Positions 2,075-38,199 of a stretch of DNA of 64,000 bases are shown here, piece by piece; positions within the stretch are counted from its first letter, which is position 1, and each line of letters begins with the position of its first letter. Source of the stretch: an uncultured SAR116 cluster alpha proteobacterium (GTDB taxonomy: Bacteria > Pseudomonadota > Alphaproteobacteria > Puniceispirillales > Marisalimonadaceae); NCBI GenBank assembly GCA_902524215.1, contig CABZCK010000002.1, positions 52,639-116,638 on the forward strand, read 5' to 3'. The notes below the pieces were generated by a model. That model was not told where the DNA came from. It saw only the letters and a program-made list of their open reading frames with translations, and ran no database searches. The translations under genes were made by a program, and so were the position numbers.

Positions 2075-3394
2075 TTAATAAAAAGCCCATAACATTATTA
2101 GAGTAATACTTGGGAATGAAAATAATAGTATTATTCTGATTATATCACTTAACAAAAAGGGTATAACGCCTTTAAAAGTATCAATTATAGGTACATCCTT
2201 AGCCATTTTATTAATTATAAATACATTTAGTCCAACAGGTGGAGTTATTAAACCAACTTCAACAACAACTAGAGTTAATATTCCAAACCAAATTGCTGTT
2301 TCTTCTGGAGATAATCCAAAATCAAGTGACATTACTAAAGGAAAAAAAACTGGAATTGTTAATAATATCATTGCTAAGCTATCCATCAAACATCCTAAAA
2401 ACAGATATAAAATCATAATACAAGCAACAACTATTAGAGGTTCTAAATTATTTTCTTTAGAAAATTCAGTTAATAAATTTGGAAGCTGAGTTAAAGCAAT
2501 AAAAGAATTAAAAAATTCTGCACCTAATAAAACAAAAAATATCATTCCTGTTGTAACTGCTGTACTTTCAATAACCTCAATAAATGACTTTATGTTAAAT
2601 GATTTATTTGTAATGGCTATAATACCGGTTCCTGCAGCACCAATTGCAGCACCTTCAGTAGGTGTAAAAAAACCCATGTAAATACCACCAATCATTACAA
2701 CAAAGATCAAGATTATATGCCAAATATTTTTAAATAAATACATACGGTCTTTCCAAGGAACTCTATCTTTAATAGGTCCAGAATTTTGGTTTAATCTGAC
2801 ATATAAACTAATTGCAACTATATAACCTAAGGCAGCAAGTAAACCAGGTATGAAAGCGCATAAAAACATTTTAGCTATGTTTTGTTCAGTCAGAATAGAA
2901 TAGATTATTAATATAACTGAAGGAGGAATTAAAATGCCTAGAGTTCCCCCTGCAGCTAATGCACCAGTACTTAGTGCTCCTGAATACCCTAATCTTCTTA
3001 ATTCTGGCAAAGCTACTTTTCCCATGGTTGCTGCAGTCGCCAATGATGATCCACAAATTGCTCCAAACCCAGCACATGCTCCAACGGCAGCCATGGCAAC
3101 GCCCCCTTTTCTATGTCCTAAACATGCACCAGCAAACTTAAACAATGCTTCACTCATACCAGCTTTGGATGCAAAGTTACCCATAAGTAAAAAAAGTGGA
3201 ATTACTGAAAGAGAGTAATTTGAAAATAAATGCCATGCACTTGTCTTAGCCAGAGACATAACAGGAAGCCATCCTGTAATTAAAATTGTACCAGTACATC
3301 CAACTAATAACATAGCTAAACCAATAGGAACTCTGAATGCTAAAAGTGAAAATAGAATTGGGAAAGCTAGAATACCAAGAATATATTTGTCCAT
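2075..3394 (-). CDS. dctM: TRAP transporter large permease (DctM family)
   Basis: 439 aa multi-TM protein with DctM features (PLFLLMGNFASKAGMSEALF, LGILIPPSVILIIY). Confidence 0.9.
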   Translation of the reverse strand: MDKYILGILAFPILFSLLAFRVPIGLAMLLVGCTGTILITGWLPVMSLAKTSAWHLFSNYSLSVIPLFLLMGNFASKAGMSEALFKFAGACLGHRKGGVAMAAVGACAGFGAICGSSLATAATMGKVALPELRRLGYSGALSTGALAAGGTLGILIPPSVILIIYSILTEQNIAKMFLCAFIPGLLAALGYIVAISLYVRLNQNSGPIKDRVPWKDRMYLFKNIWHIILIFVVMIGGIYMGFFTPTEGAAIGAAGTGIIAITNKSFNIKSFIEVIESTAVTTGMIFFVLLGAEFFNSFIALTQLPNLLTEFSKENNLEPLIVVACIMILYLFLGCLMDSLAMILLTIPVFFPLVMSLDFGLSPEETAIWFGILTLVVVEVGLITPPVGLNVFIINKMAKDVPIIDTFKGVIPFLLSDIIRIILLFSFPSITLIMLWAFY

Positions 3395-3396
3395 GA

Positions 3397-3927
3397 TTAA
3401 CTTCTCGATAGAATGAATTCACGATAAAATGTGTATAAACAACATGCAGATAGTAATCCAAATGAAAATGTCACTGGCAAAAAGGGTATCCAAATTGGGA
3501 ATTGAAGTAACATAGTTTCTTCTTGATAAAAATACATGTCTTTTGCTCCGAAAAACATCCTCCAAGTAAAGAACAAGGCTACAAGTCCATAAATAACTGA
3601 GCTAATACAATCTAAAAAAGCAATTTTTTTGAAATTTAATTTTGCAGTTATGAAATCTACAATAACATTACCTTTTTTTAAATGGCACAAAGGTAAAAAG
3701 GAAGATATCGCAATTGCACTACCTATTTCAACCAATTCAAAATCACCTACTAGAGGATTTAAGAATATAATTCTGCTTAATATCGAAATAAAGTTAATTA
3801 AAATAACAATGACAAGAATTATACCTCCTAAAATAGCTAAGATATAAGCTAAATCATATAAAAAACGACCAAATTTGTCATTTGGTCGTTCTGTAAGTTC
3901 ATCAATAGGATTATTTGATGAACTCAT
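3397..3927 (-). CDS. dctQ: TRAP transporter small permease (DctQ family)
   Basis: 176 aa, four TM segments, between dctP and dctM. Confidence 0.85.
   Translation of the reverse strand: MSSSNNPIDELTERPNDKFGRFLYDLAYILAILGGIILVIVILINFISILSRIIFLNPLVGDFELVEIGSAIAISSFLPLCHLKKGNVIVDFITAKLNFKKIAFLDCISSVIYGLVALFFTWRMFFGAKDMYFYQEETMLLQFPIWIPFLPVTFSFGLLSACCLYTFYREFILSRS
3864..3890 (-). promoter_or_regulatory. Terminator-like hairpin inside dctQ (candidate attenuator)
   Basis: Minus strand AACGACCAAAT-GACAA-ATTTGGTCGTT then TTTTA: perfect 11-bp stem, 5-nt loop, U-tract; begins at nt 38 of dctQ. Confidence 0.6.
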
Positions 3928-3931
3928 TTAA

Positions 3932-4960
3932 TTATAGTGATTTTTCATATTTTGAAATTAAGCTTTTTGCTGTATCTAAAAGTTTTTGAGCGTCTAAACC
4001 TTTTTTATTAGTACTCTTAATCCAATCTTCAGTTACTTTTTTTCCAGCAGCTTTCATTTTAGCTAGTTCTTCACCTTGCAAAGTAAAAAACTGCCCACCA
4101 GCATTTACTGCTAATTTTCTTGCAGGAACTTCAAAGCCGTCCCAAAGTTTACCTGCCTCTTTTGCTAAAGATAAACCTGAATTGTTGTCAATAACCTTTT
4201 TTTGCGATGGTGATAAACTCTCATACTTTGCTTTATTCATTATAAATAAAAAAGGTGTTGTATATAAACCTCTATTACCCGCAACATTAGTATGTGCTTT
4301 TGTTAATTCTTGCAATTTAAATGAAGGCATAATTTCCCAAGGCACAACCATTCCATCAATTACACCTTTTGACAATGACGGAGCAACTTTTGGAACTGGC
4401 ATTCCGACTGGAGTGGCACCCATGCTTTTAAGCATCGTTGTAATTACTCTTGTAGGACCTCTCATCTTCATACCTTGAAAATCACCAATAGACTTAATCA
4501 GCTTATTTTTTGTATGTATCATACCAGGAGCATGCACATGAACTGTTAAAATTTTATAATCTTTTAGATCTTCTGCTCCTATGGTTTCTACATACTCCTG
4601 AACCGCTTGTGATGTTATTACTGATTTTGTTGGCAAAAATGGTAATTCAAAAGCTTCAAGTCTTGGAAATCTACCTGGTGTATAACCTGCAACTGTCCAA
4701 ACTATATCAACTACCCCTTCTCTAACTTGATCAACTAGCTGGGGTGGCTTTCCTCCAAGTTGCATTGAATAATACATCTCAGTTATAATCTCACCATTTG
4801 ATTCTTTTTTAACTTTTTCTGCCCATGGCAAAACAAATTTTGCATTAGAATTAGCTGGTGCAGGAACAAATGTATGAAATTTTAAAGTGACCTTATCAGC
4901 TAAAGCAGAAAATGAAAAAAAAGTTAATGATAAAATAATCATTTTTATAAATATTTTCAT
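3932..4960 (-). CDS. dctP: TRAP transporter substrate-binding protein (DctP family)
   Basis: Signal peptide then VTLKFHTFVPAPA...GGKPPQLVDQVREGVVDIVW; DctP-like. Confidence 0.9.
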   Translation of the reverse strand: MKIFIKMIILSLTFFSFSALADKVTLKFHTFVPAPANSNAKFVLPWAEKVKKESNGEIITEMYYSMQLGGKPPQLVDQVREGVVDIVWTVAGYTPGRFPRLEAFELPFLPTKSVITSQAVQEYVETIGAEDLKDYKILTVHVHAPGMIHTKNKLIKSIGDFQGMKMRGPTRVITTMLKSMGATPVGMPVPKVAPSLSKGVIDGMVVPWEIMPSFKLQELTKAHTNVAGNRGLYTTPFLFIMNKAKYESLSPSQKKVIDNNSGLSLAKEAGKLWDGFEVPARKLAVNAGGQFFTLQGEELAKMKAAGKKVTEDWIKSTNKKGLDAQKLLDTAKSLISKYEKSL

Positions 4961-9336: not shown

Positions 9337-10326
9337 GTGGAATTAATTTTTCAAAAATTTAAATTATTTGTTATTGGATTTTTTAGCTCAATAGCAATTT
9401 TTTCATTATCTCTTTTATTTGGATTTTCAGCTAACGCGGACGAATATCCAAATAAACCAATTGAGATAGTTATTCATGCTAAGTATGGAGGTGGAACTGA
9501 TACAACCGCCAGAATGGCATCAATAAGATCAAGAAGAATATTAAAAACAGATATTAGAATAGTTTCAAAAAGAGGTGGAGCAGGAGCAAAGGCTCAAAAT
9601 TATGTGCTGACAAGGCCTGCTGATGGTTATACTGTAATGGCCCTCACACAAACTCATTTATATACTATGGCTAGAGGTAAATCTAACATGAAAATTGATG
9701 ACATAGTTGGGGTAGCTAGAGCAATGGATGACCCAACTTTTATTACTGTGTCTGGGAAAAGTAAGTATAAGACATTAGACGACGTTATCAGTGCATCAAA
9801 AAAAGCTCCCTTAAACTGGGGTGTAGCAAATATTGGTGGAACTGAACATATAGGTCTTGTTCAATTTGCAAAAGAAGCTGGAATAAAAGTTAAAGTAGTA
9901 CCTTTTGGTTCTGGAGCACAAATGGTTCAAGCTTTAATGGCTGGCAAAATTGATGCTACGTTACCTAATGTAAGTGAAGCCACAAACCAAGTTGCTGACG
10001 GAACTTTTAGAGCGCTAGTTGTTTTAGCCGAAAAAAGATTAAAAGATTATCCTAATGTTCCTTCTTCATACGAATTAGGTATTAAAGCTAAATGTTCTAC
10101 AACGAGAGGATATGCTGTATTAGCTTCGACTCCAAAACCAATTATTGAAAAAATTTCAAAAGGATTGGTTAAAGCGATGAAACATAAAGTATTTGCTAAC
10201 TATTTAGCTAGTGCAGGTTTAACTGTAGAAGGTAGTGTTGCAGGTACAGCAGTTTGGGACAAACATCTTAAAGAAGAATTTAAGGTGGCTCAAAGTGCAT
10301 TAAAAGATTTGGGGTTATTGAAATAA
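9337..10326 (+). CDS. tctC: Tripartite tricarboxylate transporter substrate-binding protein (TctC/Bug family; GTG start)
   Basis: YPNKPIEIVIHAKYGGGTDTTAR, signal peptide; followed by tctB and tctA. Confidence 0.9.
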   Translation: MELIFQKFKLFVIGFFSSIAIFSLSLLFGFSANADEYPNKPIEIVIHAKYGGGTDTTARMASIRSRRILKTDIRIVSKRGGAGAKAQNYVLTRPADGYTVMALTQTHLYTMARGKSNMKIDDIVGVARAMDDPTFITVSGKSKYKTLDDVISASKKAPLNWGVANIGGTEHIGLVQFAKEAGIKVKVVPFGSGAQMVQALMAGKIDATLPNVSEATNQVADGTFRALVVLAEKRLKDYPNVPSSYELGIKAKCSTTRGYAVLASTPKPIIEKISKGLVKAMKHKVFANYLASAGLTVEGSVAGTAVWDKHLKEEFKVAQSALKDLGLLK

Positions 10327-10338
10327 TTTAATTCACTA

Positions 10339-10836
10339 ATGAATAATTCTTTTAAAAATTTATTTAATAAAACTGATACTATCATAGCGATCATAATATT
10401 TGCTATGATAGTATTTTTATGGAATGCTGCAGACAACTTTGATAGCGTTTCGGATTTGTTTGCACAAAACATACCGCCTCAATTGTTTCCTCAAATTTTG
10501 TTAATTACAATTGGTTTATTAACAGTATTAATACCGTTTGAACACATTTTACTAAAAAAGTCTGGCAAAGATATCGACTCAGGTAGGAAGAAAAAAATTA
10601 ATTTTGCAACTTACGGTACGATGGCTATTTTATTAACGATAATTGTTTTTTCAGAATTTTTAGGAGCTTATGTTACAATTTTTTTAGCATGTTTTGTTCT
10701 TCCAGTTTTCTGGGGAGAAAAAAATCTTAAATTATTGATACCTTATATCATTTTATTTCCACTATTTATAATATTGATATTTAATATTTTATTAGGTGTT
10801 TATTTTGAACCAGGTATCTTAGAAGGCTATTTATAA
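10339..10836 (+). CDS. tctB: TTT family small permease TctB
   Basis: 165 aa, four TM segments, between tctC and tctA. Confidence 0.85.
   Translation: MNNSFKNLFNKTDTIIAIIIFAMIVFLWNAADNFDSVSDLFAQNIPPQLFPQILLITIGLLTVLIPFEHILLKKSGKDIDSGRKKKINFATYGTMAILLTIIVFSEFLGAYVTIFLACFVLPVFWGEKNLKLLIPYIILFPLFIILIFNILLGVYFEPGILEGYL
10376..10414 (+). promoter_or_regulatory. Terminator-like hairpin inside tctB (candidate attenuator)
   Basis: ATACTATCATAGC-13 nt-GCTATGATAGTAT then TTTTATGG: perfect 13-bp stem plus T-tract; begins at nt 38 of tctB. Confidence 0.6.
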
Positions 10837-10848
10837 TTAGGGCTATTT

Positions 10849-12321
10849 ATGGAAGATATAGTTAAAGGTTTATCCTTAATTTTAGAATTTGAAAATATAA
10901 TTTTAATTTTAGGTGGAGTATTAATTGGAGTTTTAGTAGGAGCTCTGCCTGGATTAAGTTCACCAATGGCTATAGCTTTATTGATACCATTTACCATAAC
11001 ACTTGATCCGGTAGCCGCTATCGCTATGATGGCAGCTTTATATTGTGCTGGTACCTTTGGTGGCTCTATTACAGCTATTCTAATCAATGCACCTGGAGCA
11101 CCTCCAGCAGTTGCTACAGCTCTTGATGGATATCCAATGGCTAAAAATGGAGAGCCTGGAAGAGCACTTGGTCTCGCAGCTGTTTCAAGTGTGCTTGGTG
11201 GTATATTTAGTTTGATTGTTTTTATTTTTGCTGCACCATTACTTGCACAAGTTGCCCTAGAATTTGGACCACAGGAATATTTTGGTTTAGCTATTTTTGC
11301 ACTTTCTATGCTTGCAACAATGAGTGGCAAATCTTCAATAAGAAATCTTATCTCAGGTTGTGTTGGCGTTTTAATTGGTACTATTGGAATTCATTTAACG
11401 ACTGGAGTAGAGAGATTTACATTTGATGTACCTGAGTTAGAAGAAGGTATAAGTTTTGTTCCTGTTTTAATTGGTTTATTTGCAGTTAGTGAACTGTTTA
11501 AGCAGTCGGAAACATTAAACTCTGTTGTTGATAGAATTCACGCTAAAGCTTTAAGATTACCAACAATTGCAGAATTAAAAAAACTGAAATATACAATTTT
11601 AAGATCTTCAGGGATAGGAACTTTTATCGGAATTTTGCCTGCAGAAGGATCTACAGTCGCTGCTATTATGGGTTATAATGAAGCTAGGAGATGGTCAAAA
11701 AATAAAGATCAGTTTGGGAAAGGTTCGCCAGAAGGTATTGTTGGCCCAGAAGCAGCAAATAATTCTGCTGCTGGTGGCGCAATGGTTCCTACATTAGCCT
11801 TAGGAATTCCTGGCAGTGGATCTACAGCTCTTATACTAGCAGCTCTAATAATGCATGGATTTCGTCCTGGACCTTACTTAATAAATGAAACTCCTGAATT
11901 TGTTTATGCTATTTTTGGTGCAATGTTAATTGCAAATTTTGGCTTTCTAATTATTGGTCTAATTGGAGCTAAATTCTTTTCATTAGTAGCATTCATACCA
12001 AAAAAACTTTTATGGCCTGCTGTTTTCATATTTGCTATGATTGGCTCTTATTCGTTTAGTTCTTCAATGTTTGATGTTTGGGTTATGTTAACATTTGGTG
12101 TAATTGGATATTTTATGAGTAGACATGGATTTTCTGCCGCTCCATTAGTAATGGGTTTGATTCTTGGAAAATTAGTTGAGGAAAGTTTTTCTCAATCAAT
12201 GATAATTCACGATAATAATTTCTTTGCATTACTAGACAAACCAATAGTAGTTTTCTTCTTCATACTCACTTTCTTAAGCCTGACTACTCCCCTTTGGACA
12301 AAAATTTTTAAGAAAAATTAA
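10849..12321 (+). CDS. tctA: TTT family large permease TctA
   Basis: GALPGLSSPMAIALLIPFT, GSITAILINAPGAPPAVATALDGYP, PEAANNSAAGGAMVPTLALGIPGS; TctA hallmarks. Confidence 0.95.
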   Translation: MEDIVKGLSLILEFENIILILGGVLIGVLVGALPGLSSPMAIALLIPFTITLDPVAAIAMMAALYCAGTFGGSITAILINAPGAPPAVATALDGYPMAKNGEPGRALGLAAVSSVLGGIFSLIVFIFAAPLLAQVALEFGPQEYFGLAIFALSMLATMSGKSSIRNLISGCVGVLIGTIGIHLTTGVERFTFDVPELEEGISFVPVLIGLFAVSELFKQSETLNSVVDRIHAKALRLPTIAELKKLKYTILRSSGIGTFIGILPAEGSTVAAIMGYNEARRWSKNKDQFGKGSPEGIVGPEAANNSAAGGAMVPTLALGIPGSGSTALILAALIMHGFRPGPYLINETPEFVYAIFGAMLIANFGFLIIGLIGAKFFSLVAFIPKKLLWPAVFIFAMIGSYSFSSSMFDVWVMLTFGVIGYFMSRHGFSAAPLVMGLILGKLVEESFSQSMIIHDNNFFALLDKPIVVFFFILTFLSLTTPLWTKIFKKN

Positions 12322-20793: not shown

Positions 20794-20847
20794 AATATCT
20801 AAATATTATATGAGTTTTGAAAACTTAAAAAGTTTTTTTATAAAACT

Positions 20848-20870
20848 AGTGGACACATTAAGTGTCCACT
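20848..20870 (-). terminator. Intrinsic terminator-like hairpin
   Basis: AGTGGACAC-ATTAA-GTGTCCACT, perfect 9-bp stem with T/A-rich flanks, in the gap between two minus-strand genes. Confidence 0.7.
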
Positions 20871-20912
20871 ATAATTTTTTTTTGGAGGATATCGTTATAT
20901 TCTAAAGTACGA

Positions 20913-21845
20913 CTATTTATTATTTTTGTTTAATAACTCTTTTTGTAAATTTAAAATATTATCAATATGAAATTCTGCTTCATATCTTTGAGCTTCATCA
21001 AATTCTTGAATATTACCTCTACATACATCTGTAGAAAATATTTCTTCAGCAACTCTTAACATTTTATAAAACTTAATTGATATGTCTATATGCTGATGCG
21101 CAAAAGAAATAGCTGGTAAAATTCTATAAAAAAGTTTTCTTGCCTCTTTTTCTTTGTTATTTATCATCAAATTATAAACAGAATTGTAAATTGTTTCCAT
21201 GGTGGACGGTATAAATCCATGAACGCCTCTTCTCATAGCCTCTATAAAACCAGTTGCAGCCCATCCTCCAGTGAGATGTAATTTATTTTTTGTTAAATTA
21301 ATAATATTGGAATATTTTTTTCCTGAGTTTACAACTTCTACTTTTAAGGATTTAAAATTTGAAACCTCATTCATAAGATTTTGAATTATTGCATCTGAAA
21401 GACCATATCCATCCCAAGACAAATCTTGTATCATCAAATGAGATGGTCCAATTTCATTTATTTTTTTATAAAAAACAATCAAATCACCTTCATCTAAATT
21501 GAGTGGGGCTTGAATTAAAACCCATTTAATTTTTTTTTGTCTCGCAAGATCAACTAAAGAATAAATTTCTTCTATTTTTTGTGAACTACATCCAAAAATA
21601 ATTGGAATTATATTTCTGCTAATATCTAATACAAATTCCATCATTTCTGCTTTTTCATTAAATGTTAAATTTTGAGTTTCACCCGCAACAGCTGACAAAA
21701 GCATACCAGCACAATTCTTGTCTATCGTATGCAAGACTAACTTTTCAAGACTTTTATAATCTATCAATTTATTATTTTTAAATGGCGTATGTAAACTAGG
21801 TATAATTCCATTTAACTCATTAATGGGAGAGAGTTTGGCATTCAT
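20913..21845 (-). CDS. Dihydrodipicolinate synthase/N-acetylneuraminate lyase family protein
   Basis: GIIPSLHTPF, LLSAVAGETQNLT, DapA-like fold pattern; exact substrate unknown. Confidence 0.75.
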   Translation of the reverse strand: MNAKLSPINELNGIIPSLHTPFKNNKLIDYKSLEKLVLHTIDKNCAGMLLSAVAGETQNLTFNEKAEMMEFVLDISRNIIPIIFGCSSQKIEEIYSLVDLARQKKIKWVLIQAPLNLDEGDLIVFYKKINEIGPSHLMIQDLSWDGYGLSDAIIQNLMNEVSNFKSLKVEVVNSGKKYSNIINLTKNKLHLTGGWAATGFIEAMRRGVHGFIPSTMETIYNSVYNLMINNKEKEARKLFYRILPAISFAHQHIDISIKFYKMLRVAEEIFSTDVCRGNIQEFDEAQRYEAEFHIDNILNLQKELLNKNNK

Positions 21846-36670: not shown

Positions 36671-37054
36671 AAGTTTATGTTATAATTATTTCATATTTCA
36701 TCAAATTTATAATTTTGAACGTATAGTTGTTTATAAAATAAACAGATCTACAAAATCAATCCGTTTTCTAATATAAGTTTCATAAAATTTAAGGTGATAT
36801 ACTTTTTTTGAAATTTCTAATTTCTATTTTTTGTCACTAATATAGTTATTAAGCCAAACGAAACAAAAGCTAATTAAAGTTTCTCTAAAAGATTTCACTC
36901 AAAATTTGATCATTTTTGTAATGCTTTAATTGATAATATAGGAATTTTTTCAACAGGAAAAAAAATTTATAAATCACAAACTAGCCATATTCAATTCTAA
37001 ATTTTGTCATAATTACGGATTATTAAAAATATATTCATAAATCCTCCCAAAATT

Positions 37055-37081
37055 AGCATTAGTTTTTTAAAAACTAATGCT
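37055..37081 (-). terminator. Perfect 13-1-13 inverted repeat just downstream of the DmdA-like gene
   Basis: AGCATTAGTTTTT-T-AAAAACTAATGCT; 8 nt past the stop codon of the minus-strand gene. Confidence 0.5.
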
Positions 37082-37089
37082 TATGAATT

Positions 37090-38199
37090 TTAATTAAAAT
37101 CATTTATCGTGGTTTCAATAAAACCATGTTCAGTTTTTACATAATAATTTTTATTATTCTCCTTCGATATATCATTTTCGTAAGCTATTATAAATCCCAT
37201 GTTTTTTTTGTATTTTGGAGAAAAAATAATCGAGGTAATATCACCAATCTCTTTTTTTTCATGATAACATTTAAGCTTGCTTTTAATTTTTAAATCATTG
37301 TCCCCAAAGAAAACACGATATATATTTCTTTTTTGTTTATTTTTTACATAATTAGTTAAAGCTACTTTACCTATGAAATCATAAGACATGTCTATTGAAC
37401 AATATTTTCCTAGAGAACAATCATATGGAGTATCTTTTGAAGTCATATCATTCCCATAACTTAATAAAGAGTTTTCAACTCTTTCAATCATATTTGGACA
37501 TCCAACTTTTATATTAAATGGTTTACCTTCCTTGATTAAAAAGTCCCAAAATTCACAAGCAATTTTCGCATTATCAAAAAGAAATTCAAATCCTCCTTGC
37601 TTGCTGTAACCTGTTTTAGAAACTAGAACTTGAGTATTCTTAAAATCAAAGAAATCAAAACTAAAAAAAGGTAAAGAAATGATTTTTTTATCAATTAACT
37701 CTTCAGTTAATTTTCTAGACTTGGGACCTTGTAAAGCTATTGTATATATATGTCTATTTTTTATTTCAATATTATGATTTGTATTAACTAATAAACCACT
37801 AAACCACATGAACATATCAGAATCAGAAATTGATACCCAAATAGTTTCCTCATCTATGGAATATACTAAAGTATCATTTAACAAACCTCCATCAAAGTCA
37901 GTCATAGGTGTGTAATAACATTTAAATTTGTCAATTGTTTCAAAATTTCGACAAGATACATAACGCAGAAAATTTAGTGCATCAGTTCCTTTGATTTCTA
38001 TTATTTTTTGACAAGATACATCCCACATTTGAACATGGTTGATAAGATGATAGTAATCTTCTTCATAACTATTAAATATTGTAGGCAAAAGTGTCTTGTT
38101 ATATATTGTATATGATGATACTCCAGCAAGAGCATTCCTTGATGTAAATGGTGTAGAGTCAATTCTATTGGATTGAGTTAATTTGTAATCCATATACAA
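37090..38199 (-). CDS. GcvT/DmdA superfamily tetrahydrofolate-dependent methyltransferase/demethylase (DmdA-like)
   Basis: RNALAGVSSYTIYNKTLLPTIF, EEDYYHLINHVQMWDVS, SKTGYSKQGGFEF, GCPNMIERVENSLLSYGND; DmdA-clade-like layout. Confidence 0.75.
   Translation of the reverse strand: MYMDYKLTQSNRIDSTPFTSRNALAGVSSYTIYNKTLLPTIFNSYEEDYYHLINHVQMWDVSCQKIIEIKGTDALNFLRYVSCRNFETIDKFKCYYTPMTDFDGGLLNDTLVYSIDEETIWVSISDSDMFMWFSGLLVNTNHNIEIKNRHIYTIALQGPKSRKLTEELIDKKIISLPFFSFDFFDFKNTQVLVSKTGYSKQGGFEFLFDNAKIACEFWDFLIKEGKPFNIKVGCPNMIERVENSLLSYGNDMTSKDTPYDCSLGKYCSIDMSYDFIGKVALTNYVKNKQKRNIYRVFFGDNDLKIKSKLKCYHEKKEIGDITSIIFSPKYKKNMGFIIAYENDISKENNKNYYVKTEHGFIETTINDFN

Follow-up and report, generated by a model that had tools for sequence, protein, structure and literature searches.

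The closest described counterparts of the RNA element reported here come from two bacterial groups. In Escherichia coli, differentially decaying operons (malE-malF and others) carry protective 3' RNA structures, 17 of 26 of which lie inside the downstream gene and without a U-tract; in the ABC operons among them the stabilised 5' gene is invariably that of the binding protein, and the downstream genes are unstable (Dar & Sorek 2018; PMC5927463). In cellulolytic Clostridia, internal intrinsic terminators that lie 3' of ABC binding-protein genes have been proposed to set the ratio of binding protein to permease; they occupy long intergenic regions (>50 bp), and a cited 24-bp case is transcribed continuously (PMC9045158).

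The hairpins that we describe in the SAR116 lineage resemble both systems and depart from both. As in E. coli, a stable hairpin stands at the boundary between binding protein and permease (111 of 119 junctions in SAR116, against 0-3% in controls), and it is conserved, with constrained wobble positions, as in the SAR116 genes tctB and dctQ. The E. coli structures lack a U-tract; the SAR116 intragenic class is on average at background, although the tctB hairpin studied here is followed by UUUUAUGG. Unlike in E. coli, the SAR116 hairpins serve TRAP, TTT and TAXI systems besides ABC systems, occupy nearly every such junction, have perfect stems that are shorter and lie closer to the junction (15-56 nt inside the gene) and differ in their position within tctB from genus to genus. 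With the clostridial terminators they share a single stem-loop directly 3' of a 5'-located binding-protein gene, the lack of a regulatory partner and a low U content; in SAR116, however, short gaps are served by hairpins within the next gene, and U-tracts are mostly absent.

The hairpin strategy, of which a preliminary description of this DNA knew no earlier account, is not undescribed: hairpins 3' of ABC binding-protein genes, some of them within the next gene, have already been reported (PMC5927463, PMC9045158). On the other hand, we found no description in the freely readable papers searched of hairpins in TRAP or TTT operons, or of a lineage in which nearly all such junctions have one. The use in TRAP and TTT operons and the near-universal pattern in SAR116 appear to be new, the principle being known for ABC operons.

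Stem-loops within tctB and dctQ

The window, by which we mean the whole 64,000-nucleotide stretch of SAR116 DNA that was analysed, contains a TTT operon in which tctC, the gene of the substrate-binding protein (9337-10326, + strand, GTG start; PF03401, E = 1e-27), is followed after 12 nt by tctB, the gene of the small membrane subunit (10339-10836, +; PF07331, E = 4.8e-12), and then by tctA, that of the large membrane subunit (10849-12321, +; PF01970, E = 5e-156). The preliminary description had placed a perfect 13-bp hairpin with a 13-nt spacer and a T-rich tail at 10376-10414, and both the sequence and the RNA fold confirm it: the 5' arm ATACTATCATAGC (10376-10388, +) pairs at 13 of 13 bases with the 3' arm GCTATGATAGTAT (10402-10414, +), the intervening 13 nt (10389-10401, +) hold two further pairs, so that the folded RNA has a loop of 9, and the tail TTTTATGG (10415-10422, +) ends the element. 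Its reported start, at nt 38 of tctB and soon 3' of tctC, is also correct, the hairpin taking up nt 38-76 of the open reading frame 10339-10836 and beginning 49 nt past the tctC stop codon. The stem formed by the RNA comprises 15 bp, with a folding energy of -18.6 kcal/mol and a z-score of -7.1 relative to shuffled sequences, and when 10325-10440 is folded the stem is present and a strong competitor fold is absent.

An internal intrinsic terminator is recognised by a G+C-rich stem and a U-rich tract; here, 4 of the 13 stem pairs are G-C, and the tail is T-rich, with a T-run that is not conserved. A consensus terminator scan did not pick up the hairpin, probably because the loop limit of the scan is 8. 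Attenuators and riboswitches, of which that of trp is an example, likewise use a hairpin to alter the expression of a downstream gene, but the SAR116 hairpin sits between structural genes, with no leader peptide or antiterminator fold seen around it; moreover, the whole window yielded no match to any Rfam family at gathering score, and a known sensing domain is absent.

Could the stem be a chance palindrome, arising in an A+T-rich genome from the codons used for the hydrophobic helix DTIIAIIIFAMIVF? The segment is indeed A+T-rich and its amino acids are repetitive, and perfect 13-bp stems arise about once per eight simulated windows. More precisely, the tctB hairpin is the window's sole perfect stem of at least 13 bp whose loop measures 3-13, and the same search in eight windows simulated with matching dinucleotide composition yielded one in total, and none with at least 4 G-C pairs. 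Against chance, an equally stable hairpin was reached in 4 of 3000 synonymous recodings of the start of tctB, the stem persists between genera through a compensatory change, and independent hairpins occur at equivalent junctions in 19 of 20 orthologous groups. We regard the probability of a chance origin as negligible, and the reservation that two such hairpins in one window might be coincidental is removed by the junction enrichment, the synonymous recoding and the conservation.

Conservation was followed in tctB orthologues taken from the genomes of relatives. The stem is intact in all six genomes of the genus, the window's own included, as an unbroken run of 13 to 15 Watson-Crick pairs. Stem codons with comparable synonymous use are unchanged but for one at the loop end, loop codons vary, and synonymous differences per codon and genome pair amount to 0.04 in the stem versus 0.24 elsewhere (permutation p = 0.014). 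In a sister genus (G018, locus L009), where tctB is 71% identical, the stem is kept through a C-G to U-A exchange that turns a Met into an Ile. This is the single compensatory event among the five distinct sequences of genera g1 and g4, and as covariation it is weak alone. In these two genera the hairpin lies at about nt 36-78; in g2 and g3 that stem is absent, and another, of unrelated sequence (TGCACCCA...TGGGTGCA, with a loop of 4-6 nt), occupies about nt 16-43 (codons 6-14) in every tctB orthologue read and shows compensatory changes of its own. The hairpin has changed place within tctB between genera, with one retained at the junction.

A second intragenic hairpin is found in the TRAP operon of the window, which comprises dctP for the substrate-binding protein (3932-4960, - strand; PF03480, E = 2.6e-41), dctQ for the small membrane subunit (3397-3927, -; PF04290, E = 7.9e-15) and dctM for the large one (2075-3394, -; PF06808, E = 3.4e-91). 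The hairpin, AGAACGACCAAAT-GACAA-ATTTGGTCGTTTT (3862-3892, -), lies within dctQ, 39 nt past the dctP stop codon, and its uninterrupted AACGACC core begins at nt 38 of the gene. It is conserved in four of the four genera of the family. Across 15 distinct sequences, 96.9% of alignment cells are paired and three pairs have changed on both sides; the covariation score was reached by none of 500 shuffles, and slid controls scored far lower. In the most telling of the compensatory wobble pairs, the third positions of an Arg codon (CGA/CGT/CGC) and a Gly codon (GGT/GGA/GGG) pair with each other, both being unconstrained at the protein level. Covariation is stronger for the dctQ than for the tctB hairpin. 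Directly before the conserved dctQ hairpin, at 3894-3926 (-), a second stem of 12 bp, some of them G-U, spans nt 2-34 of the gene and overlaps the start codon; it was found in the window's genus only.

Hairpins at transporter junctions

To place these loci in context, loci with TctB or DctQ matches were gathered across SAR116, the upstream binding-protein gene was identified by profiles, and each junction was scored by the most stable local hairpin between positions -10 and +130 relative to the binding-protein stop codon, with a cut-off of -12 kcal/mol. Hairpins at or below this cut-off occur at 111 of 119 unique junctions between binding protein and small subunit, and by median 19 of the 20 orthologous groups reach it. 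In the same loci, the corresponding figures are 1/118 at the junctions between small and large subunit, 1/118 inside small subunits and 0/118 inside binding-protein genes. Background was drawn from about 520 kb of stretches (the window and about 455 kb of G013 and G018), in which other co-directional junctions reached the cut-off in 11 of 345 cases (3%), convergent gene ends in 6 of 166 and sites inside genes in 11 of 724. Five of the 11 strong co-directional background junctions themselves follow ABC or TAXI binding-protein genes.

The pattern extends to ABC systems, whose families we selected by Pfam name: a hairpin follows 22 of 22 binding-protein genes of PF13458, 11 of 25 of PF13416 and 8 of 16 of PF00497. 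When the three families are pooled at a cut-off of -11.5, the hairpin is present in 32 of 35 cases in which another gene follows on the same strand at a distance of 20-150 nt, versus 10 of 28 in which none does. The one exception to the survey is a TRAP orthologous group of seven junctions (L108, L111, L117, L120, L122, L128 and L140; gap 16-33 nt), in which a search from -150 to +600 nt revealed no hairpin.

For the intragenic hairpins, an obvious concern is that the stems simply mirror the encoded protein. We recoded the first 45 codons synonymously, drawing codons from genome usage in 3000 trials for each of 12 genes. In 11 of these genes, 0-7 trials reached the observed stability; in the remaining one, 25 did. 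By this comparison, which the preliminary description had suggested, the stems are not explained by amino-acid sequence. The hairpin is specific to binding-protein/permease junctions and is kept by selection as a structure. A common hairpin strategy in unrelated transporters, proposed from two cases, is thereby borne out at 119 junctions in 20 groups, with background, paired, synonymous and covariation controls, and reaches beyond TRAP and TTT to ABC and TAXI systems.

Two broader functions were considered and rejected. A general gene-end terminator would not be in keeping with a comparable hairpin at only 6 of 166 convergent ends, and general operon punctuation is contradicted by the next junction in the same operons (1/118). 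As a separate observation, since so few convergent ends (6/166 at -12 kcal/mol or below, in the window and about 455 kb of G013 and G018) carry a strong hairpin, intrinsic terminators seem rare in these genomes, where Rho-dependent or other termination may prevail.

Among other Alphaproteobacteria, 12 of 25 loci have their strongest hairpin, out of about 23 windows each, at the tctC-tctB junction (p = 1e-10); junction hairpins there are mostly intergenic and are mixed with loci that have none. The junction-hairpin pattern therefore extends beyond SAR116 without being universal in Alphaproteobacteria.

Position and tail of the hairpins

Intergenic hairpins start at a median of +9 nt from the binding-protein stop codon (interquartile 7-11.5), ABC hairpins 9 nt past it (7-14), and intragenic ones at a median of about +40 nt (39-45). 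Counted from the start codon, intragenic hairpins begin 15 to 56 nt into the gene and never less than 15 nt from the called start, these offsets being approximate because a simple rule was used to call gene starts; a few hairpins with gaps of 15-21 nt overlap the called start. The intragenic class consists of only two orthologous groups, tctB and dctQ, all other groups being intergenic. What matters for the position is the stop codon upstream and not the start codon: the hairpin is intergenic where the gap permits, and lies inside the next gene where that gene starts at once. The shared offset of nt 38 that had been remarked on is real for tctB and the core of the dctQ hairpin in the window; it does not hold in relatives, and, given the range of 15-56 nt, its occurrence twice in the window is a coincidence. 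We infer that the hairpin belongs to the 3' end of the upstream gene and keeps clear of the region in which the next gene starts.

This arrangement bears on the idea that the element acts on translation or on DNA, either as a stem limiting translation of the small subunit or as an inverted repeat serving as operator for a dimeric regulator. Such a role would suit the nearness of the intragenic hairpins to the small-subunit start codon, as well as the second stem over the dctQ start in the window's genus. However, given space, the hairpin adjoins the upstream stop codon and not the start codon, it also follows ABC binding-protein genes whose next gene encodes an ATPase, and its sequences are unrelated between operons and change in a compensatory manner, which points to RNA pairing and not to a protein-binding DNA motif. 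We consider a translational or DNA-level role very improbable.

The tails speak to another alternative, that of a leaky intrinsic terminator, a mechanism demonstrated in Clostridia, at which polymerase sometimes stops, so that less tctBA than tctC is transcribed. Several hairpins would suit it: the tctB stem of the window with its T-rich tail, the dctQ hairpin with CGUUUUUUA in the window's genus, and the intergenic hairpins of L038 (TTTTTTTTG) and L036 (TTTTTTAA), which resemble canonical terminators. About 45% of all such hairpins have at least 6 T in the 8 nt past the last G-C pair, and the clostridial terminators 3' of ABC binding-protein genes function despite low U (PMC9045158). Past the full stem, however, the T content of 8 nt in the intragenic class is about background (3.5 versus 3.2 expected from composition; 3.8 for intergenic and 4.0 for ABC hairpins), and T-runs of at least 4 follow only 10% of intragenic stems (26% of intergenic and 33% of ABC ones). 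In tctB the T-run decays among relatives (TTTTTATGG, TTATTATGG in G010, TTGTTATGG in G018) while the stem stays, some hairpins have A-rich tails (AAAAAAACCC, AATAAACATT), and terminators do not typically have stems of 13-16 bp that contain A-U bases. By their sequence, then, some of the hairpins would be canonical terminators and most would not. Attenuation by intrinsic termination, which the preliminary description had offered as the common strategy, is unsupported as a general rule, and we judge leaky termination to be an unlikely, if still serious, account of the tctB hairpin.

A proposed role in transcript stability and protein ratio

Because U-tracts are mostly absent or decaying, we favour an exonuclease barrier, a mechanism demonstrated in E. 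coli (PMC5927463), over attenuation: a hairpin that stabilises the upstream binding-protein mRNA is, in our analysis, the best explanation and a somewhat probable one. The tctB hairpin would then be the 3'-end stem-loop of the tctC mRNA, placed inside tctB because the two genes are only 12 nt apart. On this proposal, tctCBA would be transcribed as one unit, and its downstream tctBA part would be cut and rapidly degraded by endonucleases and 3'-5' exonucleases. Degradation would halt at the base of the hairpin, 49 nt past the tctC stop codon, leaving a stable tctC message with a longer half-life, from which binding protein would be made in large excess of the membrane subunits; some hairpins may contribute through leaky termination. 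Counting against an exonuclease barrier are the UUUUAUGG after the tctB stem in the window, the T-rich tails of about 45% of all such hairpins, the TRAP group that has none, and the ribosomes on tctB, by which a hairpin inside the gene would be unfolded.

In marine bacteria living on trace nutrients, binding proteins rank with the most abundant proteins, yet their genes share a transcript with those of scarce membrane subunits. The purpose of the junction hairpins is probably to provide far more binding protein than membrane transporter, and their anatomy and specificity point to a role in setting binding protein above permease. A hairpin at nearly every junction of four unrelated transporter classes would be a simple means of setting a protein ratio that can be read from sequence. 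Furthermore, in the intragenic version an RNA structure that serves the adjoining gene constrains the coding sequence of a membrane protein; synonymous changes in it are compensatory, and its position shifts between genera. A bolder reading, which we think improbable, is that a dedicated 3'-end stem-loop is a lineage-wide mark of SAR116 binding-protein genes (TRAP, TAXI, TTT and ABC), read by a specific factor for RNA binding or decay, and selected even inside a neighbouring membrane-protein gene, in bacteria whose other gene ends mostly have no strong hairpin. As a practical mark, a strong hairpin 3' of a gene in these genomes suggests high expression or a binding protein.

Strong hairpins in the window also follow genes of other kinds. 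One, TAGTGGACACTTAATGTGTCCACTA (20847-20871, -), lies about 41 nt after a gene of the dihydrodipicolinate synthase family (20913-21845, -), whose relatives in G018 and G013 have strong downstream hairpins too. Another, AGCATTAGTTTTTAAAAAACTAATGCT (37054-37080, -), starts about 8 nt past a DMSP demethylase-like gene (37090-38199, -; NCBIfam NF009133, 361.7 bits, under the cut-off of 410), which is likely another highly expressed gene.
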